Positions 54,997 to 64,000 of a DNA stretch of 64,000 nucleotides are shown here, one piece after another. Position 1 is the stretch's first letter. Every line of letters starts with the position of its first letter. The notes beneath the pieces were generated by a model that worked only from the letters and a program-made list of their open reading frames with translations, did not search any database and was not told the origin of the DNA. The stretch covers positions 62,001 through 126,000 of the forward strand of contig NZ_MTKN01000016.1 of the NCBI RefSeq assembly GCF_001975825.1, in the 5' to 3' direction. Origin of the DNA: [Flexibacter] sp. ATCC 35208 (GTDB lineage Bacteria > Bacteroidota > Bacteroidia > Chitinophagales > Chitinophagaceae). Made by a program: the position numbers and the translations under genes.

Positions 54997-56251
54997 ATGT
55001 CTTTATTACCTTTCTTAAGGTCGCCTCGTCGGATGCGGTGACATTAATTAATGAATAAGGTCTTGCCCCTGTAAACACATCCCATCGCCAGGTCAGCTGG
55101 CTGTTCGTACGATGCTTTCCATTATCGTACCACCAGGCGGTATATAGTTTTGTATTCCCCTCCACCAACAAGGCAGTATAAACAGACCTGCCATCCCATA
55201 CCTGCTCCTGTACCTTTTCAAATGTATACCCACTCCCCTTCCAACAGATCATAGGATGATGCTCTGAATAATAATAGGAAGGAATAAATTTCACATACAC
55301 CAACGCATCCTTACTCATTAACTGCGTAACATCATCAGGTAAATTCTTCACAATATACCCTGCGGTCTTCACAGGCAATGCATGCGCTACCACAGGCCGC
55401 GGACGCAGGTTTACATAACAGCCATAGATCATGCACGGCAGCAATATACCATTCCGTAACAATAAAGGACCAGTAGGTACAATCCGGTATATTTTCTTCT
55501 CTACCACAACCGGAGTACCAAACCGCATGATCATATACCTGCTGAAAAAAACAAAAGGCACTATAACATAACCTACTAATGACATCACTCCTACCGCCTC
55601 ATGCGACGGGGTATCCGGCATTATTTTAAACTGTACGAGACAAATGATCCGTATTAAATTGCCTATTACATTCAATCCAAACGCTACACTCAATACCCCA
55701 AGGGTCATGCCCACCGATAGATATTTTCTATACTTTTTTTGGAATCCTCCTATAATGATCATTCCACACAACATAGCAGTCACCGTCATCTGCAAACCCA
55801 TACAAGCGGGATCTACGGAGAAATCCTGTCCACCACAGCTAATGATATTCCCCTCTACTTTTGCCCCCATCACCACACTCCCCGCCAGCGCGGTCAGTTG
55901 CAAACGAATGGGAAATGTAAACAGGTCCGCCCAGAACCGGAATACCGGCGACATACAGATCATTACCAGCATAGGCAACAGATTAATCCTTCCCACATAC
56001 ATCTCCAAACAAAATACAACTGCTGTGATCAATGCCAGATAATAAAATGTATGCACCGGCACCAGTAGAAACAATGCGAACAAGCCAATAGAGATATAAA
56101 AATATCGCTGGCTTCCCTTTTTTGTTTGATCGAATTCGGTCGTGAAGGGCAGCGCTGCCAGTCCCAGCAGGAAACCGGCAGACTGCCAATCCACAAAGTG
56201 CTGCAGCCCTACAAGGAACAGGACAAGGTACACAAGTATAAGGATCCTCAT
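54893..56251 (-). CDS. xrtN: Exosortase N
   Basis: This 452-residue integral membrane protein has about eight helices and the exosortase catalytic triad: C150 in VDPACMGLQ, R201 in NVIGNLIRIICLVQF and H217 in SHEAVG. An EpsI-like periplasmic domain follows (YYYSEHHPMICWKGSGYTFE). Exosortases are thought to process PEP-CTERM proteins. The start codon overlaps the stop of the VIT gene in an ATGA, so the two are cotranslated. The last ~33 residues (after IKTFAPA) overlap the gene remnant at 54676-54996 in another frame, which suggests that the native 3' end was replaced. Confidence 0.88.
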   Translation of the reverse strand: MRILILVYLVLFLVGLQHFVDWQSAGFLLGLAALPFTTEFDQTKKGSQRYFYISIGLFALFLLVPVHTFYYLALITAVVFCLEMYVGRINLLPMLVMICMSPVFRFWADLFTFPIRLQLTALAGSVVMGAKVEGNIISCGGQDFSVDPACMGLQMTVTAMLCGMIIIGGFQKKYRKYLSVGMTLGVLSVAFGLNVIGNLIRIICLVQFKIMPDTPSHEAVGVMSLVGYVIVPFVFFSRYMIMRFGTPVVVEKKIYRIVPTGPLLLRNGILLPCMIYGCYVNLRPRPVVAHALPVKTAGYIVKNLPDDVTQLMSKDALVYVKFIPSYYYSEHHPMICWKGSGYTFEKVQEQVWDGRSVYTALLVEGNTKLYTAWWYDNGKHRTNSQLTWRWDVFTGARPYSLINVTASDEATLRKVIKTFAPASGVGGEGYACFISAVDKKFAVERFCGSSER

Positions 56252-58725
56252 ATTGCTACAGCGCGTTTCTTTTTAAACCAAACGATACATACTAACCCTA
56301 TTATGATCAAAGCCCACTCATGCGGTTCAGGCACCGCCCCTTTGCCTTTCAGGGAAGCGTTCTTCAGACTGTTGGCGTCATCATGTATATCGAAACGGTC
56401 ATAATCTGCTTGTGTTTCCAGTACGATCAGACTGGAGGCCGGGGTCACGATATAAGATTCTTTTGCAGTGGCAATGATCTCACTGTCCGACATTTTTTGC
56501 GGCCCCATTTTCTGCATGATGTGGTTGTAAGCAAATAAGCGCATCAGGTGATCAGGCGCATTGCTTACCCCCGTCTGATCATCCATATTGATCGTCACAC
56601 CTGCGGGTGCTATCACTACACGGTTATCATTCTCTATATCTCTGGGAAACTGGTGCTGCGGCAGCCATTGCGCCAGCTCTTTTACATCTCCATCCGCATA
56701 CCGGAAGAAACGGTATTCTTTCAGTGTACGCAGGTAAGGAGACAGCTCGCCACCAAGATTAAACAATTGCATTTTCCCTGGTATTTTTAATGACGTCTTT
56801 ATTTGTTCACTGAATACACTTCCTGCCAGATCACCCAAATTGGGAGACATCACATTTCCCTTCGTAATGACCAATGCGGATGCACGATCAGGTACATTGT
56901 ATACAGGAAATAAACTGTACCGGTCTTTGACCAGTCGCCCAAAGTTCTCACCAGTGGCTGTATGCCATTGATTATCGATATACACCTTTACGGGATAGTG
57001 CAGATTTAATATTTCTTTAAATTCTTCTTCCGTCCATGACTGGTTAATATCGAGGTAAATAGTTTTGATATCAGCACCACCCAATTCTTGTTTGTAAGGC
57101 GCTACAAAGAATGACTTCCCATTGGCACTAAAACGGTTACTCCGTATGCCGAGATCGATCACAGATAATTGCCAGTCTGCTTCATAAGGGCCTACGCTGG
57201 AAAAAGTATTCTTCGTACGACTGAACATTCCGGGCAATTCCACGCCTACCGGTGTCTCCTGGAAGTTGATGTTTACATCTTCGCGGGCACTGCCTGCATC
57301 CGGCCCCTGGAACCAGATATTCTGGTACACCAGTCGCTTGCCCTGTTGTAACAACGGCGTCGTGATACCGATTTTAACCTGTCTGCCGGATTGCCCTTCC
57401 ACTGGAAACACACGTACCGTCACCGTATTCCCTTCCTGCCAGTGTACCACGCTGGGATCACGGTATTCATGACCCACAATTTTTTCATACGCCTCCGCCG
57501 CTTTTTCTTTGGTAGTTAGAATACCTTTTTCTTCCTTGCCATTTATCCAGAGGGAAAGGGAAGTCACGACACCTCCTTCGGGCAAGTGAAAAGTGTAAAT
57601 AGCCTCCTGGTTATTCCAGCTATTTCTACTCATCTCCGCGTTGAAAACATTGATCGTTTTCTCTGTATACGCCATGTGCAGCGAAGGCCAGATATTCGCA
57701 TTGGTACGTACCTGAATAGTAGAGAGTTTATCGCCGCTCCACAGCCGTTCCTGTGTTTCCTGACGGCTGTCGTACATGGCGGTCAGTACCTGGGCCGCCT
57801 CTGTTTCCGGTATATAGGCAGTGCCGGTCAGGGAGGCGATCACCAGCAGCGGATCCTGCAATTGCTCGGCATCATAAAAGCTTCTTCTCCTGGGCATATC
57901 AAAGAAACTCCAGTCACCAAAAGCATCGTTCCCTGTCTGGTATACGATCCCTGCCTTCAACACCCTCTCTGTCATCGCATTACCAGGTGTCTTGCGCGCT
58001 ACATTTTCCCATGCTGGCAGGTCTTCATTGTCTGTCCTGAGATAAGCATCATCAATGGCAGAAACAGCGTTTTTCCACAGCATAGTATATACAATGATCA
58101 GTGCCACCACGCTCCCGATACCAACCAGGTAGGCATACCGGTATGTTGGCCTGAACCAGACACAGGCAGATACCAGGTTATAAGTATAGATCAAAAACAA
58201 CAGCGGGATGAACACATGCCCCCCAATACCAAATACAATCATACCAATAGCGCCAATGATACAGGTGGGCAACATACAGAACATAAGGTATAAAAAACAA
58301 CAGGTAGAAACACCCAGTATGAATGCCATAATGGTTCTCACCACAGGAGGAAATCCCTCTTTAAAACCATAGGCAATATTGTTGATGCAACACACTCCCA
58401 ATGTAATCGCCCACCAGTCAGTAGAAACTGCGAAAATTTCCATGCATTTGTTCAACGCAAAACAACTGATGAGGCACAAGGTCAGGTACACTGCAAATGC
58501 ATTGCGGCTCCTTCTCCCCTTTTTAAATCCACCCTTCCCCCATAAAAACACGAAATACAACAAAACGGACACATAAATTAACAGAAATAGGGGAAATGTG
58601 TCCTCCGACTGGCTTTGAACCATCCTAGGAAAAAAGTAGAATCCAAGGGTAACAGGAATAAGGAGTAAACCCACCCAAAGGCGCTCATCCCGGAACATGA
58701 ATTGAAAATATTGCTTATTTGTCAT
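56248..58725 (-). CDS. XrtN-system VIT domain protein with PEP-CTERM-like tail
   Basis: This 825-residue protein has about ten N-terminal membrane helices (residues 10-240), a soluble middle with a VIT-like beta domain (YTFHLPEGGVVTSLSLWING, KEKAAEAYEKIVG) and a C-terminal tail VPEPHEWALIIIGLVCIVW followed by basic residues, a PEP-CTERM-like sorting signal. It is the probable target of the adjacent exosortase N. I start it at ATG 58725. A frame from TTG 58749 would put a palindromic operator-like site inside the gene. The protein's role is unknown. Confidence 0.85.
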   Translation of the reverse strand: MTNKQYFQFMFRDERLWVGLLLIPVTLGFYFFPRMVQSQSEDTFPLFLLIYVSVLLYFVFLWGKGGFKKGRRSRNAFAVYLTLCLISCFALNKCMEIFAVSTDWWAITLGVCCINNIAYGFKEGFPPVVRTIMAFILGVSTCCFLYLMFCMLPTCIIGAIGMIVFGIGGHVFIPLLFLIYTYNLVSACVWFRPTYRYAYLVGIGSVVALIIVYTMLWKNAVSAIDDAYLRTDNEDLPAWENVARKTPGNAMTERVLKAGIVYQTGNDAFGDWSFFDMPRRRSFYDAEQLQDPLLVIASLTGTAYIPETEAAQVLTAMYDSRQETQERLWSGDKLSTIQVRTNANIWPSLHMAYTEKTINVFNAEMSRNSWNNQEAIYTFHLPEGGVVTSLSLWINGKEEKGILTTKEKAAEAYEKIVGHEYRDPSVVHWQEGNTVTVRVFPVEGQSGRQVKIGITTPLLQQGKRLVYQNIWFQGPDAGSAREDVNINFQETPVGVELPGMFSRTKNTFSSVGPYEADWQLSVIDLGIRSNRFSANGKSFFVAPYKQELGGADIKTIYLDINQSWTEEEFKEILNLHYPVKVYIDNQWHTATGENFGRLVKDRYSLFPVYNVPDRASALVITKGNVMSPNLGDLAGSVFSEQIKTSLKIPGKMQLFNLGGELSPYLRTLKEYRFFRYADGDVKELAQWLPQHQFPRDIENDNRVVIAPAGVTINMDDQTGVSNAPDHLMRLFAYNHIMQKMGPQKMSDSEIIATAKESYIVTPASSLIVLETQADYDRFDIHDDANSLKNASLKGKGAVPEPHEWALIIIGLVCIVWFKKKRAVAI

Positions 58726-58734
58726 ATCATAAAG

Positions 58735-58819
58735 TACTTTGTATTTCAAAGCTTATAGGGCTAAAAAAATCGACCATGGCCAATCTGGTGAAACACCTTT
58801 CACTTTGAAATACAAAGTA
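58735..58819. promoter_or_regulatory. Duplicated palindromic operator-like site upstream of the exosortase operon
   Basis: TACTTTGTATTTCAAAG (58735-58751) and its exact inverted copy (58803-58819) are 68 bp apart centre to centre. Each is itself near-palindromic (CTTTG-N5-CAAAG). The first copy ends 9 bp before ATG 58725. Two copies at this spacing could bind a dimeric regulator twice, probably as a repressor across the promoter. No regulator gene is next to it. Confidence 0.65.
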
Positions 58820-59002: not shown

Positions 59003-59284
59003 ATGAAAGCAATCTGGCAAAAGGAAGTAATAGCAGAAAGCGAAAAAACTGTCATAGTCGAACATAATCACTACTTTCCTCCCGAAGCCGTAAAACAGGA
59101 AATGCTAAGTCCCAGCAAGACCCACACAATCTGTCCATGGAAAGGAGAAGCATCCTACTATGATGTAACCGTGGATGGAAAAGTAAACAAAGACGCAGCC
59201 TGGTATTACCCAGCTCCCAAAGATGCTGCAAACAACATAAAAGGTTACATCGCCTTCTGGAAAGGTGTAGAAGTGTTACGGTAA
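59003..59284 (+). CDS. DUF427 domain protein
   Basis: This 93-residue protein fits DUF427 along its whole length: VIVEHNHYFPPEAV, then CPWKGEASYYDV and AWYYPAPKDAA, with a final YIAFWKGVEV. These small single-domain proteins have no settled function. It lies 31 bp before the flavoprotein reductase on the same strand. Confidence 0.9.
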   Translation: MKAIWQKEVIAESEKTVIVEHNHYFPPEAVKQEMLSPSKTHTICPWKGEASYYDVTVDGKVNKDAAWYYPAPKDAANNIKGYIAFWKGVEVLR

Positions 59285-59315
59285 CCCATTGATCCTACTT
59301 ACTAAAAACCCGGGA

Positions 59316-60695
59316 ATGCAAAAATTTGATGCGATCGTCATTGGTTCTGGTCAGGGGGGAGTTCCCCTGGCAAAAAAACTGGCAAAGGCAGGCTGGAAAA
59401 CAGCCATTATAGAAAAACGATGGATAGGCGGTACCTGCATTAATGATGGATGCACTCCCACAAAAGCAATGATTGCCTGTGCCGAAGCAGCACATACTGT
59501 GGCCAACAGCAGGCAATGGGGGATCACTGTGTCCGGTTTTCAACTCGATTTTGAAAAAATCATCGCCCGCAAGAATGAGATTGTCACCTCCTTCAGAGGC
59601 GGGGCTACCAAAGGGCTGGAAAATACGGATGGGGTCACTACCTACTATGGCACTGCCAGCTTTAACGGCCCCAAAACAGTGGATGTAAAACTCAGAACAG
59701 GCAGCTCCGAAACCATTACAGCCGATCATATCTTTATCAATACCGGTACCTCCCCAAAGATCCCGGATATTCCCGGCCTAAATCAGGTACCCTATCTTAC
59801 TAATACGACTTTACTGGATCTGCAAACCCTTCCCTCCCACCTCATCGTACTGGGTGGCAGTTACATTGGTTTGGAATTCGGACAAATGTTCCGCCGGTTT
59901 GGTTGTCAGGTCACGATCATCGAACGCTCTACTTTGCTGAAAAGAGAAGATGAAGATGTGTCTGCCGCCATGAAAAAGATCATGGAAGGGGCTGGCATCA
60001 AAGTACATACAGGTGCAACTATCAAACAAATTGAAGGCGCCGGCGATGCCGTGAGGATCGTACTGAATGCCAATGGTGAAAGTACCACCGTCACCGGCTC
60101 TCATATTCTCGTTGCATCCGGCCGTACACCGCAGACAAAGGAATTACACCTAGATACTACCGGCATCACTACCGACGAAAAAGGCTTTATTCCTGTGAAT
60201 GAAAAACTGGAAACTTCTGTACCTGGCATCTATGCCCTTGGAGATGTAAAAGGAGACCCGGCATTTACACATATTTCCTACAATGATCATCTCATCCTGC
60301 TCAAAAATCTAGTCGAAAAAAAGAACGAAACCACTATTGGCAGACCTGTCCCCTATTGCGTATTTACCGATCCGCAATTAGGCAGAATTGGGCTAACAGA
60401 AAAGGAAGCACGCGAACAGGGTCTCGATATCCAGGTAGCCTGTCTGGATATGTCTAAAGTAGCCCGCGCTATTGAAACAGGACACACAGATGGTTTTATG
60501 AAAGCAGTGGTCGAAAAGTCAACAGGCAGGATATTAGGCGCCGCAATCTTAGGCCATAACGGCGGTGAAATCATGAGCGTACTACAAATCGCCATGATGG
60601 CAGGCATGACCGCTACACAGATCCGGGAAATGATCTTTGCGCATCCACTGTACACAGAATCATTGAACAATCTTTTCATGAGCATCACAAAGTAA
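59316..60695 (+). CDS. Mercuric reductase-like FAD disulfide oxidoreductase
   Basis: This 459-residue class I pyridine nucleotide-disulfide oxidoreductase has the FAD motif IVIGSGQGG (residues 8-15), the redox pair C41-INDG-C46 in GGTCINDGCTPTK, the second Rossmann motif (IVLGGSYIGLEFGQMF), FAD motif 2 (IYALGDVKGDPAFTH) and a C-terminal dimerisation domain with the His-Pro pair in IFAHPLYTESLNN. There is no N-terminal HMA domain and no C-terminal Cys pair of true MerA, so mercury is unlikely. ATG 59316 was chosen; the frame from TTG 59289 adds 9 residues. Reduction of a thiol or disulfide is likely. Confidence 0.88.
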   Translation: MQKFDAIVIGSGQGGVPLAKKLAKAGWKTAIIEKRWIGGTCINDGCTPTKAMIACAEAAHTVANSRQWGITVSGFQLDFEKIIARKNEIVTSFRGGATKGLENTDGVTTYYGTASFNGPKTVDVKLRTGSSETITADHIFINTGTSPKIPDIPGLNQVPYLTNTTLLDLQTLPSHLIVLGGSYIGLEFGQMFRRFGCQVTIIERSTLLKREDEDVSAAMKKIMEGAGIKVHTGATIKQIEGAGDAVRIVLNANGESTTVTGSHILVASGRTPQTKELHLDTTGITTDEKGFIPVNEKLETSVPGIYALGDVKGDPAFTHISYNDHLILLKNLVEKKNETTIGRPVPYCVFTDPQLGRIGLTEKEAREQGLDIQVACLDMSKVARAIETGHTDGFMKAVVEKSTGRILGAAILGHNGGEIMSVLQIAMMAGMTATQIREMIFAHPLYTESLNNLFMSITK

Positions 60696-60774: not shown

Positions 60775-61674
60775 ATGATCAAACTGGAAAATGTGAGCAA
60801 GTCATTCCTCAACGGTAAGCCAGCCGTTTCTGCTGTATCATTCGAAGTGAATGCAGGAGAAACACTTATTCTGCTGGGCACCAGTGGAAGTGGGAAAACT
60901 ACCACACTCAGAATGATCAACCGCCTGTTATTGCCAGACAGCGGGAATATTTTTGTAAACGGTCAATCCGTATTATCCCAACGACTGGAATCCCTGAGAA
61001 GAGGCATCGGTTACGTACTACAATATCACGGTCTCTTCCCCCATTACACCGTAGGTGAAAACATCGGCGTGGTACCCGGTCTGCTCAGGTGGGATGCAGG
61101 TCGCATCGCATCGAGAGTAGCGGCATTGATGGAAAAACTCCATCTCCCTGTTTCCGATTTTCTCCATGCATATCCGCAACAACTTAGTGGCGGACAGCAA
61201 CAACGTGTAGGTCTGGCCCGCGCACTCGCCGCAGACCCACCCGTATTGCTCATGGACGAACCTTTTGGCGCACTTGACCCCGTGACCCGCGCCAGCGTAA
61301 GAAAAGAATTTCGCGCACTCGACGAAATACAATCTAAAACCATCATCATGGTCACCCATGATGTGCAGGAAGCCTTTGAACTGGGCACGCAAATCTGCCT
61401 CATGGACAAAGGCAAAGTACAGCAAACCGGCACACCCGCCGAACTCTTATTTTCACCCGCTAATGACTTTGTCAAAGCCTTTTTTGATGAACACCGCTTT
61501 ATACTGGAACTGAAAGCACTCACTATCGCCGACATCCGGCCATGGTTAGCGCCAATCAATGGCAATGATACCCTGACCATATGGGACGCCATCGCCGCCG
61601 GCATGCCCCGCAATACACTGCTGGATGCCGTAGACCAGTACAGGCAATCTAAACATATGCATGGAACCAGCTAA
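60775..61674 (+). CDS. OpuC-type ABC transporter ATP-binding protein (EgtV-like)
   Basis: This 299-residue ATPase belongs to the betaine/choline OpuCA group: Walker A GTSGSGKT (35-42), signature LSGGQQQR (137-144), Walker B LLMDEP (158-163) and H-loop MVTHDVQEAFELG. It lacks the paired CBS domains common in osmoregulatory OpuA/OpuC ATPases. The following permease starts inside it with a 14-bp overlap. With egtB next in the operon it probably powers uptake of ergothioneine or a related betaine, like EgtV. Confidence 0.85.
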   Translation: MIKLENVSKSFLNGKPAVSAVSFEVNAGETLILLGTSGSGKTTTLRMINRLLLPDSGNIFVNGQSVLSQRLESLRRGIGYVLQYHGLFPHYTVGENIGVVPGLLRWDAGRIASRVAALMEKLHLPVSDFLHAYPQQLSGGQQQRVGLARALAADPPVLLMDEPFGALDPVTRASVRKEFRALDEIQSKTIIMVTHDVQEAFELGTQICLMDKGKVQQTGTPAELLFSPANDFVKAFFDEHRFILELKALTIADIRPWLAPINGNDTLTIWDAIAAGMPRNTLLDAVDQYRQSKHMHGTS

Positions 61675-63208
61675 CAGCTTTATTGACTTTCTACAGCAGG
61701 AATCCGGCAAAATACTGGAACAAACCCTGCAACATATCGGCCTTACCTTTATCTCTTTGTTGATCGCCGTTGTGATTGGTGTGCCCCTGGGTATCCTCAT
61801 CACCCGCAGGCCTAAAATGGCAGGTGCCGTATTGGGCATTGCAGGAGTATTACAAACCATCCCCAGTATAGCCCTTTTAGGCTTCATGATTCCCCTGTTA
61901 GGGATTGGCCCTTTACCTGCTATCGTCGCGTTATTTTTGTATGCGCTATTGCCCATTGTACGCAATACTTATACAGGGATCATACAGATGGATCCCGCCG
62001 TTATCGAAGCGGCGACCGGTATCGGTATGAGCCCCCGTCAATTATTATTTAAAGTACAACTACCACTCGCCATGCCTGTGATACTGGCGGGTGTAAGAAC
62101 CGCTACCGTGATCAATGTGGGTGTCGCCACCCTCGCTGCCTACATTGCTGCCGGTGGCTTAGGGGAATTCATTTTCGGTGGTATCGCGCTCAACAACACG
62201 AACATGATCCTGGCTGGTGCCATTCCTGCGGCCTTGCTCGCTATCTTATTCGACTGGGGCCTCTCCCGCATCAAATTCCGCAAGGTGTTCCTGCTGCCGC
62301 TGCTGATATTGGTGCTATCCTCTTTTTACCTGCTCCCTGACTTTTATGGTTCTAAATTGCTCGCAGGCTTTACCCCGGAATTCATGGGACGGAATGATGG
62401 AGATGTAGGTTTAAAAAAGATCTATGGATTAAAAATTCGCACGGTGGTAATCAGCGATATGATCATGTACAAAGCCGCTTACGACAAAAAGGTAGACGTA
62501 ATCAGCGGCAGCAGTACCGATGGCCGTGTAAAAGCGTATGACCTCCAGGTATTACAGGATGACAAACACATATTTCCGCCGTATTACGCCGCACCAATTG
62601 TGAGACAGGACGTGCTTGACAAATACCCCGAACTGGCCCCGGCCCTCGATAAACTGTCTGGTACAATTAATGATAGTATCATGACGGCCTTGAATTACCG
62701 GGTAGATATTTTAAAACAGTCCCCGGCTGTTGTTGCTAAGGAGTTTCTCGATGCCCACCACTTGCTGCGATCACCCGGAACGGGTACAAAAGGTACGATC
62801 CGCATTGGCGCCAAGATCTTTGGTGACGGCTACATCCTCGCAAATATGTACAAATTACTGGTTGAAGGTTTTACTGATCTGCATGTAGAAACAATGACCG
62901 GTCTGGGAGGTACAAAGATCTGCTTTGAAGCACTCACCAATGCACAGATTGACCTGTACCCGGAATATACCGGTACCGGTCTGCTCGTCATCTTACTGGC
63001 ACCTCCGTCTACCCTCGATTCATTGGGTGGACAGGCTGATAAAGTTTATGACTACGTGGCAGCGGCCTTTCAACAACGCTATCATATTAAATGGCTGGCA
63101 CCTGTTGGATTCAATAATACGTATGCATTAATGATGCGCAGACAACAGGCCAGTGCTTTAAAAATTAAGACTATCAGCGACCTGACAAAATACTTACAAT
63201 GGAATTAA
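61661..63208 (+). CDS. ABC permease fused to a solute-binding domain with swapped halves (EgtU-like)
   Basis: This 515-residue protein begins with an OpuCB-type permease (residues 1-210, EAATGIGMSPRQLLFKVQLP), then an anchor helix (212-232). A periplasmic OpuAC-like binding domain follows in unusual order. The canonical C-terminal half comes first (GFTPEFMGRNDG, DLQVLQDDKHIFPPYYAAPI; 235-372). The canonical N-terminal half comes last (GTIRIGAKIFGDG, IDLYPEYTGTG, GFNNTYALMM; 376-515). The order differs from standard OpuC/EgtU binding domains as I recall them and so looks like a circular permutation. The frame is intact. Overlap with the ATPase and egtB genes suggests an ergothioneine importer. 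Confidence 0.85.
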   Translation: MEPANSFIDFLQQESGKILEQTLQHIGLTFISLLIAVVIGVPLGILITRRPKMAGAVLGIAGVLQTIPSIALLGFMIPLLGIGPLPAIVALFLYALLPIVRNTYTGIIQMDPAVIEAATGIGMSPRQLLFKVQLPLAMPVILAGVRTATVINVGVATLAAYIAAGGLGEFIFGGIALNNTNMILAGAIPAALLAILFDWGLSRIKFRKVFLLPLLILVLSSFYLLPDFYGSKLLAGFTPEFMGRNDGDVGLKKIYGLKIRTVVISDMIMYKAAYDKKVDVISGSSTDGRVKAYDLQVLQDDKHIFPPYYAAPIVRQDVLDKYPELAPALDKLSGTINDSIMTALNYRVDILKQSPAVVAKEFLDAHHLLRSPGTGTKGTIRIGAKIFGDGYILANMYKLLVEGFTDLHVETMTGLGGTKICFEALTNAQIDLYPEYTGTGLLVILLAPPSTLDSLGGQADKVYDYVAAAFQQRYHIKWLAPVGFNNTYALMMRRQQASALKIKTISDLTKYLQWN

Positions 63209-64000
63209 AGCAAGCTTTCGACACCGTGCGCCAAAGATCTGTGAGCATATGCGCGCCTTTACAAACAGAGGATTATGTGGTACAACCAGTGGTAGATGTG
63301 AGTCCGCCCAAGTGGCATTTAGGCCATACTACCTGGTTCTTTGAAACATTTGTATTACAGCCAAATTTAAACGGCTACCAGATATTTAATACTGATTACA
63401 ACTTTGTATTTAATAGCTACTATGAATCCGTAGGTGCGAGAGTTATTCGTACAGATCGGGGAAATCTTAGCAGACCAGGTGTGGCGGATGTATACCGTTA
63501 TAGGGAATACGTAGATAAAGAAATGGGTAAATTACTCGCACAGGATATATCCAAAGAATTACACGCACTGATCACTTTAGGTTTAAATCATGAAGAACAG
63601 CACCAGGAATTACTTGTCACTGATATAAAATATATCTTAGGGCACAATCCTTTGTTCCCCGCTTACCAGGAGGACTACAATTTCAAAGAACAGCCGGTGG
63701 CCAGCAGTCATTTCATTGCTTTCCCGGCAGGTATCTACGAAATCGGTTATACCGGCGAAGGTTTCTGCTTTGACAACGAACTGAACAGACACAAGGTGTA
63801 CCTGGAAGAATTTAGTATCAGCAGTGCGCTTGTCACGAACGCTGAATACCTGGAATTCATGAAGGCTGGCGGTTACACGGACTTCCGTCACTGGCACGCC
63901 GAGGGATGGGACTGGGTAAAAACCAATAAGATCAACGCCCCGCTTTACTGGCATGAAGTAGATGGTGACTGGATGAATTACACTTTAAAAGGATTCAGGG
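63199..64000 (+). CDS. egtB: EgtB-type sulfoxide synthase (3' truncated by the window)
   Basis: Only the first ~267 residues are in the window. They show the DinB_2 domain with WHLGHTTWFFE (first iron-ligand His, about H43) and the pair H131-x-x-x-H135 in NHEEQHQELL, and the start of the FGE-sulfatase domain (FPAGIYEIGYTGEGFCFDNE). EgtB oxidatively joins a thiol donor to N-trimethylhistidine in ergothioneine synthesis. The start lies inside the transporter gene (10-bp overlap), so the two are translationally coupled. OvoA-type ovothiol enzymes have a similar plan but a different N-terminal pattern. Confidence 0.87.
   Translation, partial: MELKQAFDTVRQRSVSICAPLQTEDYVVQPVVDVSPPKWHLGHTTWFFETFVLQPNLNGYQIFNTDYNFVFNSYYESVGARVIRTDRGNLSRPGVADVYRYREYVDKEMGKLLAQDISKELHALITLGLNHEEQHQELLVTDIKYILGHNPLFPAYQEDYNFKEQPVASSHFIAFPAGIYEIGYTGEGFCFDNELNRHKVYLEEFSISSALVTNAEYLEFMKAGGYTDFRHWHAEGWDWVKTNKINAPLYWHEVDGDWMNYTLKGFR

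Follow-up and report, generated by a model that had tools for sequence, protein, structure and literature searches.

Among the described systems closest to the protein analyzed here, P0001, are two importers, EgtU and OpuA. We refer to the canonical first and second halves of the binding domain as H1 and H2, and to the permease part as TM. In EgtU (EgtUBC), the ergothioneine importer of Streptococcus pneumoniae, the halves stand behind the permease in the order H1-H2, whereas P0001 has the order TM-H2-H1. OpuA (Lactococcus lactis OpuABC, Bacillus subtilis OpuAC) is a glycine-betaine importer, and in the L. lactis fusion the permease is followed by H2 and then H1, as in P0001. For glycine-betaine-binding proteins, a permutation has been in the literature since 2008 (PMC2395249). 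Natural circular permutation in a tethered ABC binding protein is also known from TpMglB-2 (Tp0684) of Treponema pallidum, described in 2016 as a “type Ic” permuted glucose-binding protein, whose authors named tethering as a possible reason for the permutation (PMC4990184). TpMglB-2 differs from P0001 in belonging to the type I sugar class, in its permutation site, and in having a lipid anchor instead of a permease fusion. The Pfam families of P0001 also occur in Bacteroidota fusions with the order H1-H2-TM and in stand-alone binding proteins of the OpuC/AfProX type, and in both the two halves follow the usual order.

P0001 is encoded in the window, a stretch of 64,000 nucleotides from [Flexibacter] sp. 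ATCC 35208, by a single uninterrupted frame of 515 amino acids at 61661 to 63208. This frame and all the P0001 features described here are on the forward strand. The permease domain covers residues 10 to 205 (61688 to 62275), as located by our own TM profile and by BPD_transp_1, which matches residues 40 to 200 with 74 bits (curated cut-off 26.4). A last helix at residues 211 to 229 (62291 to 62347) is followed in the predicted model by a strand at residues 234 to 237. H2 occupies residues 229 to 372 (62345 to 62776) and H1 occupies residues 376 to 515 (62786 to 63205); the canonical C- and N-termini are joined at residues 366 to 377 (62756 to 62791), where the model has a loop between a helix at residues 355 to 365 and a strand at residues 378 to 384.

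This order appears in the sequence matches of the binding domain. Pfam OpuAC (PF04069) matches with 186.7 bits against a curated cut-off of 21.2, in two stretches, with profile positions 114 to 256 coming first and positions 2 to 113 after. The PDB chains of EgtUC, OpuCC, and AfProX each match P0001 in two stretches as well, H2 corresponding to their C-terminal half and H1 to their N-terminal half; EgtUC positions 138 to 276 fall on residues 232 to 370, and phmmer places positions 8 to 134 of the EgtUC chain on H1. Our own binding-domain profile, built exclusively from 29 non-permuted relatives, matches with positions 126 to 263 at residues 232 to 368 (138 bits) and with positions 2 to 123 at residues 379 to 511 (121 bits). 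With this profile each half is present once, and no half is duplicated. The binding domain of P0001 is one complete two-lobed domain that is truly circularly permuted; chance is excluded by the match scores together with conservation of the order in 86 distinct proteins. The first-pass annotation of the window, made from the letters alone, had proposed an open frame and a domain with swapped halves at residues 235 to 372 and 376 to 515. The frame and the swap are borne out, the boundaries are correct within a few residues, and the EgtUC and OpuCC alignments that it suggested give the swapped order rather than the canonical one.

We classed open frames by our own profiles of TM, H1, and H2, in loci taken from the best matches of each search. 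All three modules were present in one frame in 111 distinct proteins: 82 with the order TM-H2-H1, 22 with H1-H2-TM, and 7 with TM-H1-H2 (an Acetoanaerobium locus, with the permease and H1-H2 in two frames, was left out of this count). A later batch added four distinct TM-H2-H1 proteins, resulting in a total of 86, all from Bacteroidota. It also contained 20 H1-H2-TM entries, plus five more from frames of unusual length, although some of the later H1-H2-TM entries repeat earlier genes or run off contig ends; the unusually long frames (L176 to L180) are H1-H2-TM plus unassigned extra length. The permuted proteins come from Chitinophaga, a Pedobacter MAG, several more families in the same class, and, from another Bacteroidota class, families f24 and f34. 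Among the 22 H1-H2-TM proteins, 21 are from Bacteroidota and one is from Gemmatirosa, while the seven TM-H1-H2 proteins are from plasmid records (five Bacillota, one fusobacterium, and Synechocystis). Within the window’s own family, 20 of 147 sampled genomes match, although in one (G033) the match is limited to a piece of H1 at the end of a contig. Sampling outside Bacteroidota was thin, with other phyla covered through plasmid records and solved structures only; 508 matching plasmid records contained no place covering at least 80% of P0001, and we found no permuted order outside Bacteroidota in this set. None of the classified frame arrangements has two H1 or two H2 halves in one frame, as a duplicated intermediate would. 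The first-pass annotation had asked whether all Bacteroidota homologues share the permutation. A universal permutation is ruled out by the H1-H2-TM proteins, which are common in the phylum, carry a normal-order domain N-terminal to the permease, and fall on tree branches separate from those of the permuted proteins.

The predicted model of P0001 has a mean pLDDT of 83.8 and a pTM of 0.69. It is weakest at permease residues 161 to 178, and from residue 231 onward all ten-residue blocks have a pLDDT of 77 to 97. We compared the model with the 1000 top-ranked Foldseek chains, aligned in chain order, so that likeness to EgtUC is judged by one half only. OpuAC (2b4m_A) aligns with the model end to end, residues 230 to 510 corresponding to chain residues 11 to 272 (Z 19.6, 3.3 Å, 243 residues of the 264-residue chain). 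The L. lactis OpuA fusion (7ahh_A) aligns from model residue 15 to 508 against 89 to 533 (Z 19.8, 6.0 Å, 367 residues), and EgtUC (9egi_A) aligns over the H2 half (Z 11.0, 2.3 Å, 143 residues). The Foldseek picture agrees, with OpuA types matching end to end and EgtUC over one half. Overall, OpuA-type domains are permuted at approximately the same position as P0001, and the whole binding domain is structurally collinear, at 16 to 20% identity in the structure alignments. An OpuAC-like protein of Lactiplantibacillus likewise has two Pfam stretches, of which the first is the same as in P0001 (114 to 256, at its residues 36 to 179), and on our non-permuted profile it has the swapped order weakly (13 and 5 bits). 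A single Pfam stretch was found in E. coli ProX, an EgtU-like protein of E. faecalis (1 to 257), two H1-H2-TM fusions, and eight further binding proteins. Superposition on the model agrees with the permuted order in the first-pass annotation, but the break is not unique to this gene. The statement that no description of such a domain was known fails in its general form, and a claim to the first permutation of this sort is ruled out, given the fold comparison with OpuA and the permutation already in print (PMC2395249). What seems new here is that the permutation recurs at the same loop in OpuC/EgtU-like proteins; among the matches listed from the open-licence PubMed Central literature, we found no description of a permuted OpuC/EgtU-type domain.

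Judged by its sequence and by the permease tree, P0001 is probably OpuC/EgtU-like and not OpuA-like. It shares 41% identity with EgtU over the H2 half, and our EgtU-type non-permuted profile scores its halves at 138 and 121 bits, compared to 13 and 5 bits for the OpuAC-like protein. In the permease tree, a 100/100 branch parts four rows (one OpuA-type, ProW, one ProW-like, and ChoW) from all 63 others, P0001 included; this tree has a single OpuA-type row, long outgroup branches that meet, and an unsettled bootstrap. The permuted rows form one group at 96/98 in the binding-domain tree (23 of the 52 non-redundant permuted rows), with an SH-aLRT of 93 in the concatenated tree (all 52 rows), and at just 73/73 in the permease-only tree. 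Systems with normal order are found on both sides of the 100/100 permease branch. On the OpuA side, Pfam gives this order for E. coli ProX and for the ProX-like protein of L188; across the branch, it occurs in OpuC, OsmF, and EgtU-like proteins. Wherever the root is placed, the order must therefore have changed two or more times, provided that each binding domain shares the history of its permease. Since the family groups with OpuC/EgtU rather than OpuA by sequence and in the permease tree, the permutation would be independent and convergent at the same loop. Convergence with OpuA is most likely; we infer both the direction of change and the preference for convergence over repeated reversal.

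An alternative history is that the permuted order was inherited from an OpuA-like ancestor and kept in Bacteroidota, with the other OpuC/EgtU proteins gaining the usual order later. In its favor are the order shared with OpuA and a break at approximately the same position. The binding domain by itself does not place OpuAC: the AU test does not reject a tree that unites OpuAC with the permuted proteins in one clade (p 0.58), and this tree has a log-likelihood 0.98 units above that of the free one; the OpuAC branch is very long. This result slightly lowers our confidence in convergence. However, the OpuA-, ProW-, and ChoW-type permeases (four rows) split off at 100/100, sequence similarity to OpuAC is marginal, and this history needs the same two or more changes of order, given joint inheritance; we therefore consider it quite improbable. 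An assembly error, a frameshift, or a duplicated domain, the last of which the first-pass annotation had named as a reading that would overturn its own, has a negligible probability. Nothing in the window gene points to any of these, and a single relative (L067, from G223) has an early in-frame stop in the permease part, which is either a broken copy or a base error. The order is common to 86 distinct Bacteroidota proteins, the frame is open, and each half is single, which rules out both an assembly error and a duplicated domain; the judgment that this is a genuine permutation stands.

Under the convergent origin that we favor, the present order could plausibly have come about by tandem duplication of the domain in frame, after which the two outer halves were lost. 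In a type I ABC importer of the OpuC/EgtU kind, P0001 would supply the membrane part and the substrate-binding part as one fused subunit; it would be partnered by the ATPase encoded just upstream and presumably act as a homodimer with two tethered binding domains. In the model, the last permease helix (residues 211 to 229) is predicted to enter the domain almost directly at the first strand of H2 (residues 234 to 237), and the old termini would be joined by the short loop at residues 366 to 377. Fold and pocket would be retained and the attachment point alone would shift, giving the arrangement of OpuA, unlike that of EgtU. The domain would be expected to open, close, and dock as in OpuA. OpuA has an ATPase with CBS domains (PMC2861598), whereas no CBS family is among the 19 Pfam families listed at E ≤ 1 for the ATPase at 60775 to 61674; OpuA’s ionic-strength control is therefore not expected here.

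The gene context of P0001, which includes egtB and egtD, also differs from that of OpuA. The cluster in the window’s genome has the gene order DUF427, FAD oxidoreductase, ATPase, TM-H2-H1, egtB, and egtD, with the following members on the forward strand of the window. At the upstream end is a small DUF427 (NTP_transf_9) protein of 93 residues (59003 to 59284; Pfam PF04248, 120 bits), followed by an FAD-dependent pyridine-nucleotide-disulfide oxidoreductase that is MerA/mycothione-reductase-like (59289 to 60695; 57 NCBIfam families matched, none of the 25 listed over its cut-off). The ProV-like ABC ATPase subunit (60775 to 61674; PF00005, 127 bits; TIGR01186, 269.8 bits, below the cut-off of 326.6) overlaps the P0001 gene by 14 bases, and the end of the P0001 gene overlaps by 10 bases the start of egtB, which encodes ergothioneine sulfoxide synthase and is cut by the window end (63199 to 64000; TIGR03440, 546.6 bits on the whole gene in L094, cut-off 360). 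Beyond the window, egtD follows egtB (L094; TIGR03438, 286.2 bits, just below the cut-off of 290.9). The genome that encodes P0001 thus itself encodes EgtB and EgtD, whereas homologues of EgtU are described as nearly exclusive to Firmicutes (PMC9732360). A distant egtE-like gene for a PLP-dependent enzyme is located just past the window (L094, 6577 to 7761, reverse strand; 149.6 bits, far below the cut-off of 400), and a few Chitinophaga-type loci (L022, L023, and L105) end with such a gene.

By our own score cut-offs, EgtB and EgtD are encoded downstream of the transporter gene in 38 of 39 named loci, 36 of which are from Chitinophaga; the remaining locus (L048) has neither. In 19 permuted loci chosen from other sampled genomes, both enzymes are near in 9, EgtD alone in 3, and neither in 7. 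Some H1-H2-TM fusions are also near egtB or egtD: among 21 chosen loci, both enzymes are near in 5, EgtB alone in 1, and neither in 15. We searched 12 permuted genomes whole, including all seven without either enzyme nearby, and detected EgtB over the cut-off in 10; the other two, G500 and G224, lacked any EgtB match at E ≤ 1e-40. Of the 147 genomes sampled from the family, 24 have EgtB over the cut-off, comprising all 20 genomes with the transporter and 4 of the 127 without it; most of the 147 contain weaker EgtB matches, which usually cover a portion of the profile, and this count therefore uses the cut-off alone.

The residues that give S. pneumoniae EgtUC its affinity for ergothioneine include G244, F293, Y337, and E375 (PMC9732360). 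The first three correspond to F387, Y436, and F484 in P0001, the same as in the glycine-betaine-binding AfProX. Across 48 aligned permuted proteins, the F387 position is F in 44 and Q in 4, the Y436 position is Y in all 48, and the F484 position is F in all 48. E375 corresponds to E240, which is invariant (48 of 48), and R379 and Y341 of EgtU correspond to R244 and Y488, both conserved, while S284 takes the position of EgtU Y419. Given the replacement of G244, F293, and Y337 and the serine at the Y419 position, the pocket of P0001 is not that of EgtU. The label EgtU-like in the first-pass annotation holds for the overall sequence but not for the three ergothioneine-specificity residues, which are of the AfProX type here; membership in EgtU by these residues is ruled out. 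The OpuA pocket is described as a Trp-prism (PMC2861598), whereas the mapped positions of P0001, which do not include the OpuA Trp positions, hold Tyr and Phe.

Two pocket sets divide the 52 non-redundant permuted proteins with no mixture: D389-G390 with S284 in 20, and E389-Q390 with Y284 in 32. The 20 proteins of the first set are Chitinophaga-type and constitute exactly one subclade of the concatenated tree, and the set perhaps arose in a single event. Coupling of residue 284 with residues 389 and 390, on opposite halves of the chain, would be predicted for a single pocket built from both swapped halves. In the window, these residues are encoded at 62510 to 62512 and 62825 to 62830. Among the alignments, a Q-to-G difference in the same place distinguishes engineered acetylcholine and nicotine sensor entries. 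Going by the residues, a change from Q to G at this place would fit a larger ligand.

Because the three EgtU specificity residues are not conserved, the ligand of P0001 has to be inferred. In cells that produce ergothioneine, the importer most likely takes up this compound or a closely related trimethylated betaine, for example hercynine. F387, Y436, and F484, which are of the AfProX/OpuC type, would also suit a general osmoprotectant (glycine betaine, choline, or carnitine), in which case the location beside the egt genes would reflect redox or osmotic co-regulation only. Two observations speak against an osmoprotectant importer: all 20 family-sample genomes with the transporter also have EgtB, a strict co-occurrence, and the Chitinophaga-type subgroup has the coupled D389-G390/S284 set, which would fit a larger ligand; we regard such an importer as unlikely. 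Uptake of ergothioneine or a close betaine would allow the producer cells to recapture leaked ergothioneine. Taken as a whole, we consider it likely that P0001 belongs to an importer of the OpuC/EgtU kind with a convergently permuted domain that serves ergothioneine or betaine recapture. More tentatively, and with less than even confidence, we propose that the OpuC/EgtU lineage re-invented the OpuA order since tethering through H2 benefits a domain placed behind the permease, and that the permuted importer is dedicated to ergothioneine recapture, with the Chitinophaga subgroup gaining a larger pocket through G390 and S284, by a route different from that of EgtU, which has a glycine at the G244 position.

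Since one phylum contains both normal-order and permuted relatives, near the same enzyme genes, the effect of the tether point on transport and the repeated choice of chain order can be tested. The gene cluster also points to a dedicated importer in ergothioneine producers, outside the Firmicutes in which EgtU has been reported (PMC9732360).

The FAD oxidoreductase is the upstream neighbor in 37 of 39 named permuted Chitinophagaceae loci, and an FAD/NAD(P)-dependent oxidoreductase gene also adjoins EgtU-like genes on annotated Leuconostoc and Lentilactobacillus plasmids (L145, 5062 to 6393; L149, 959 to 2293). We speculate that the oxidoreductase beside the transporter could reduce oxidized ergothioneine. 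Some loci have the DUF427 gene upstream of the oxidoreductase gene, and in others it stands beside egtD. Outside the cluster, the window encodes a large VIT-domain protein at 56248 to 58749 on the reverse strand.
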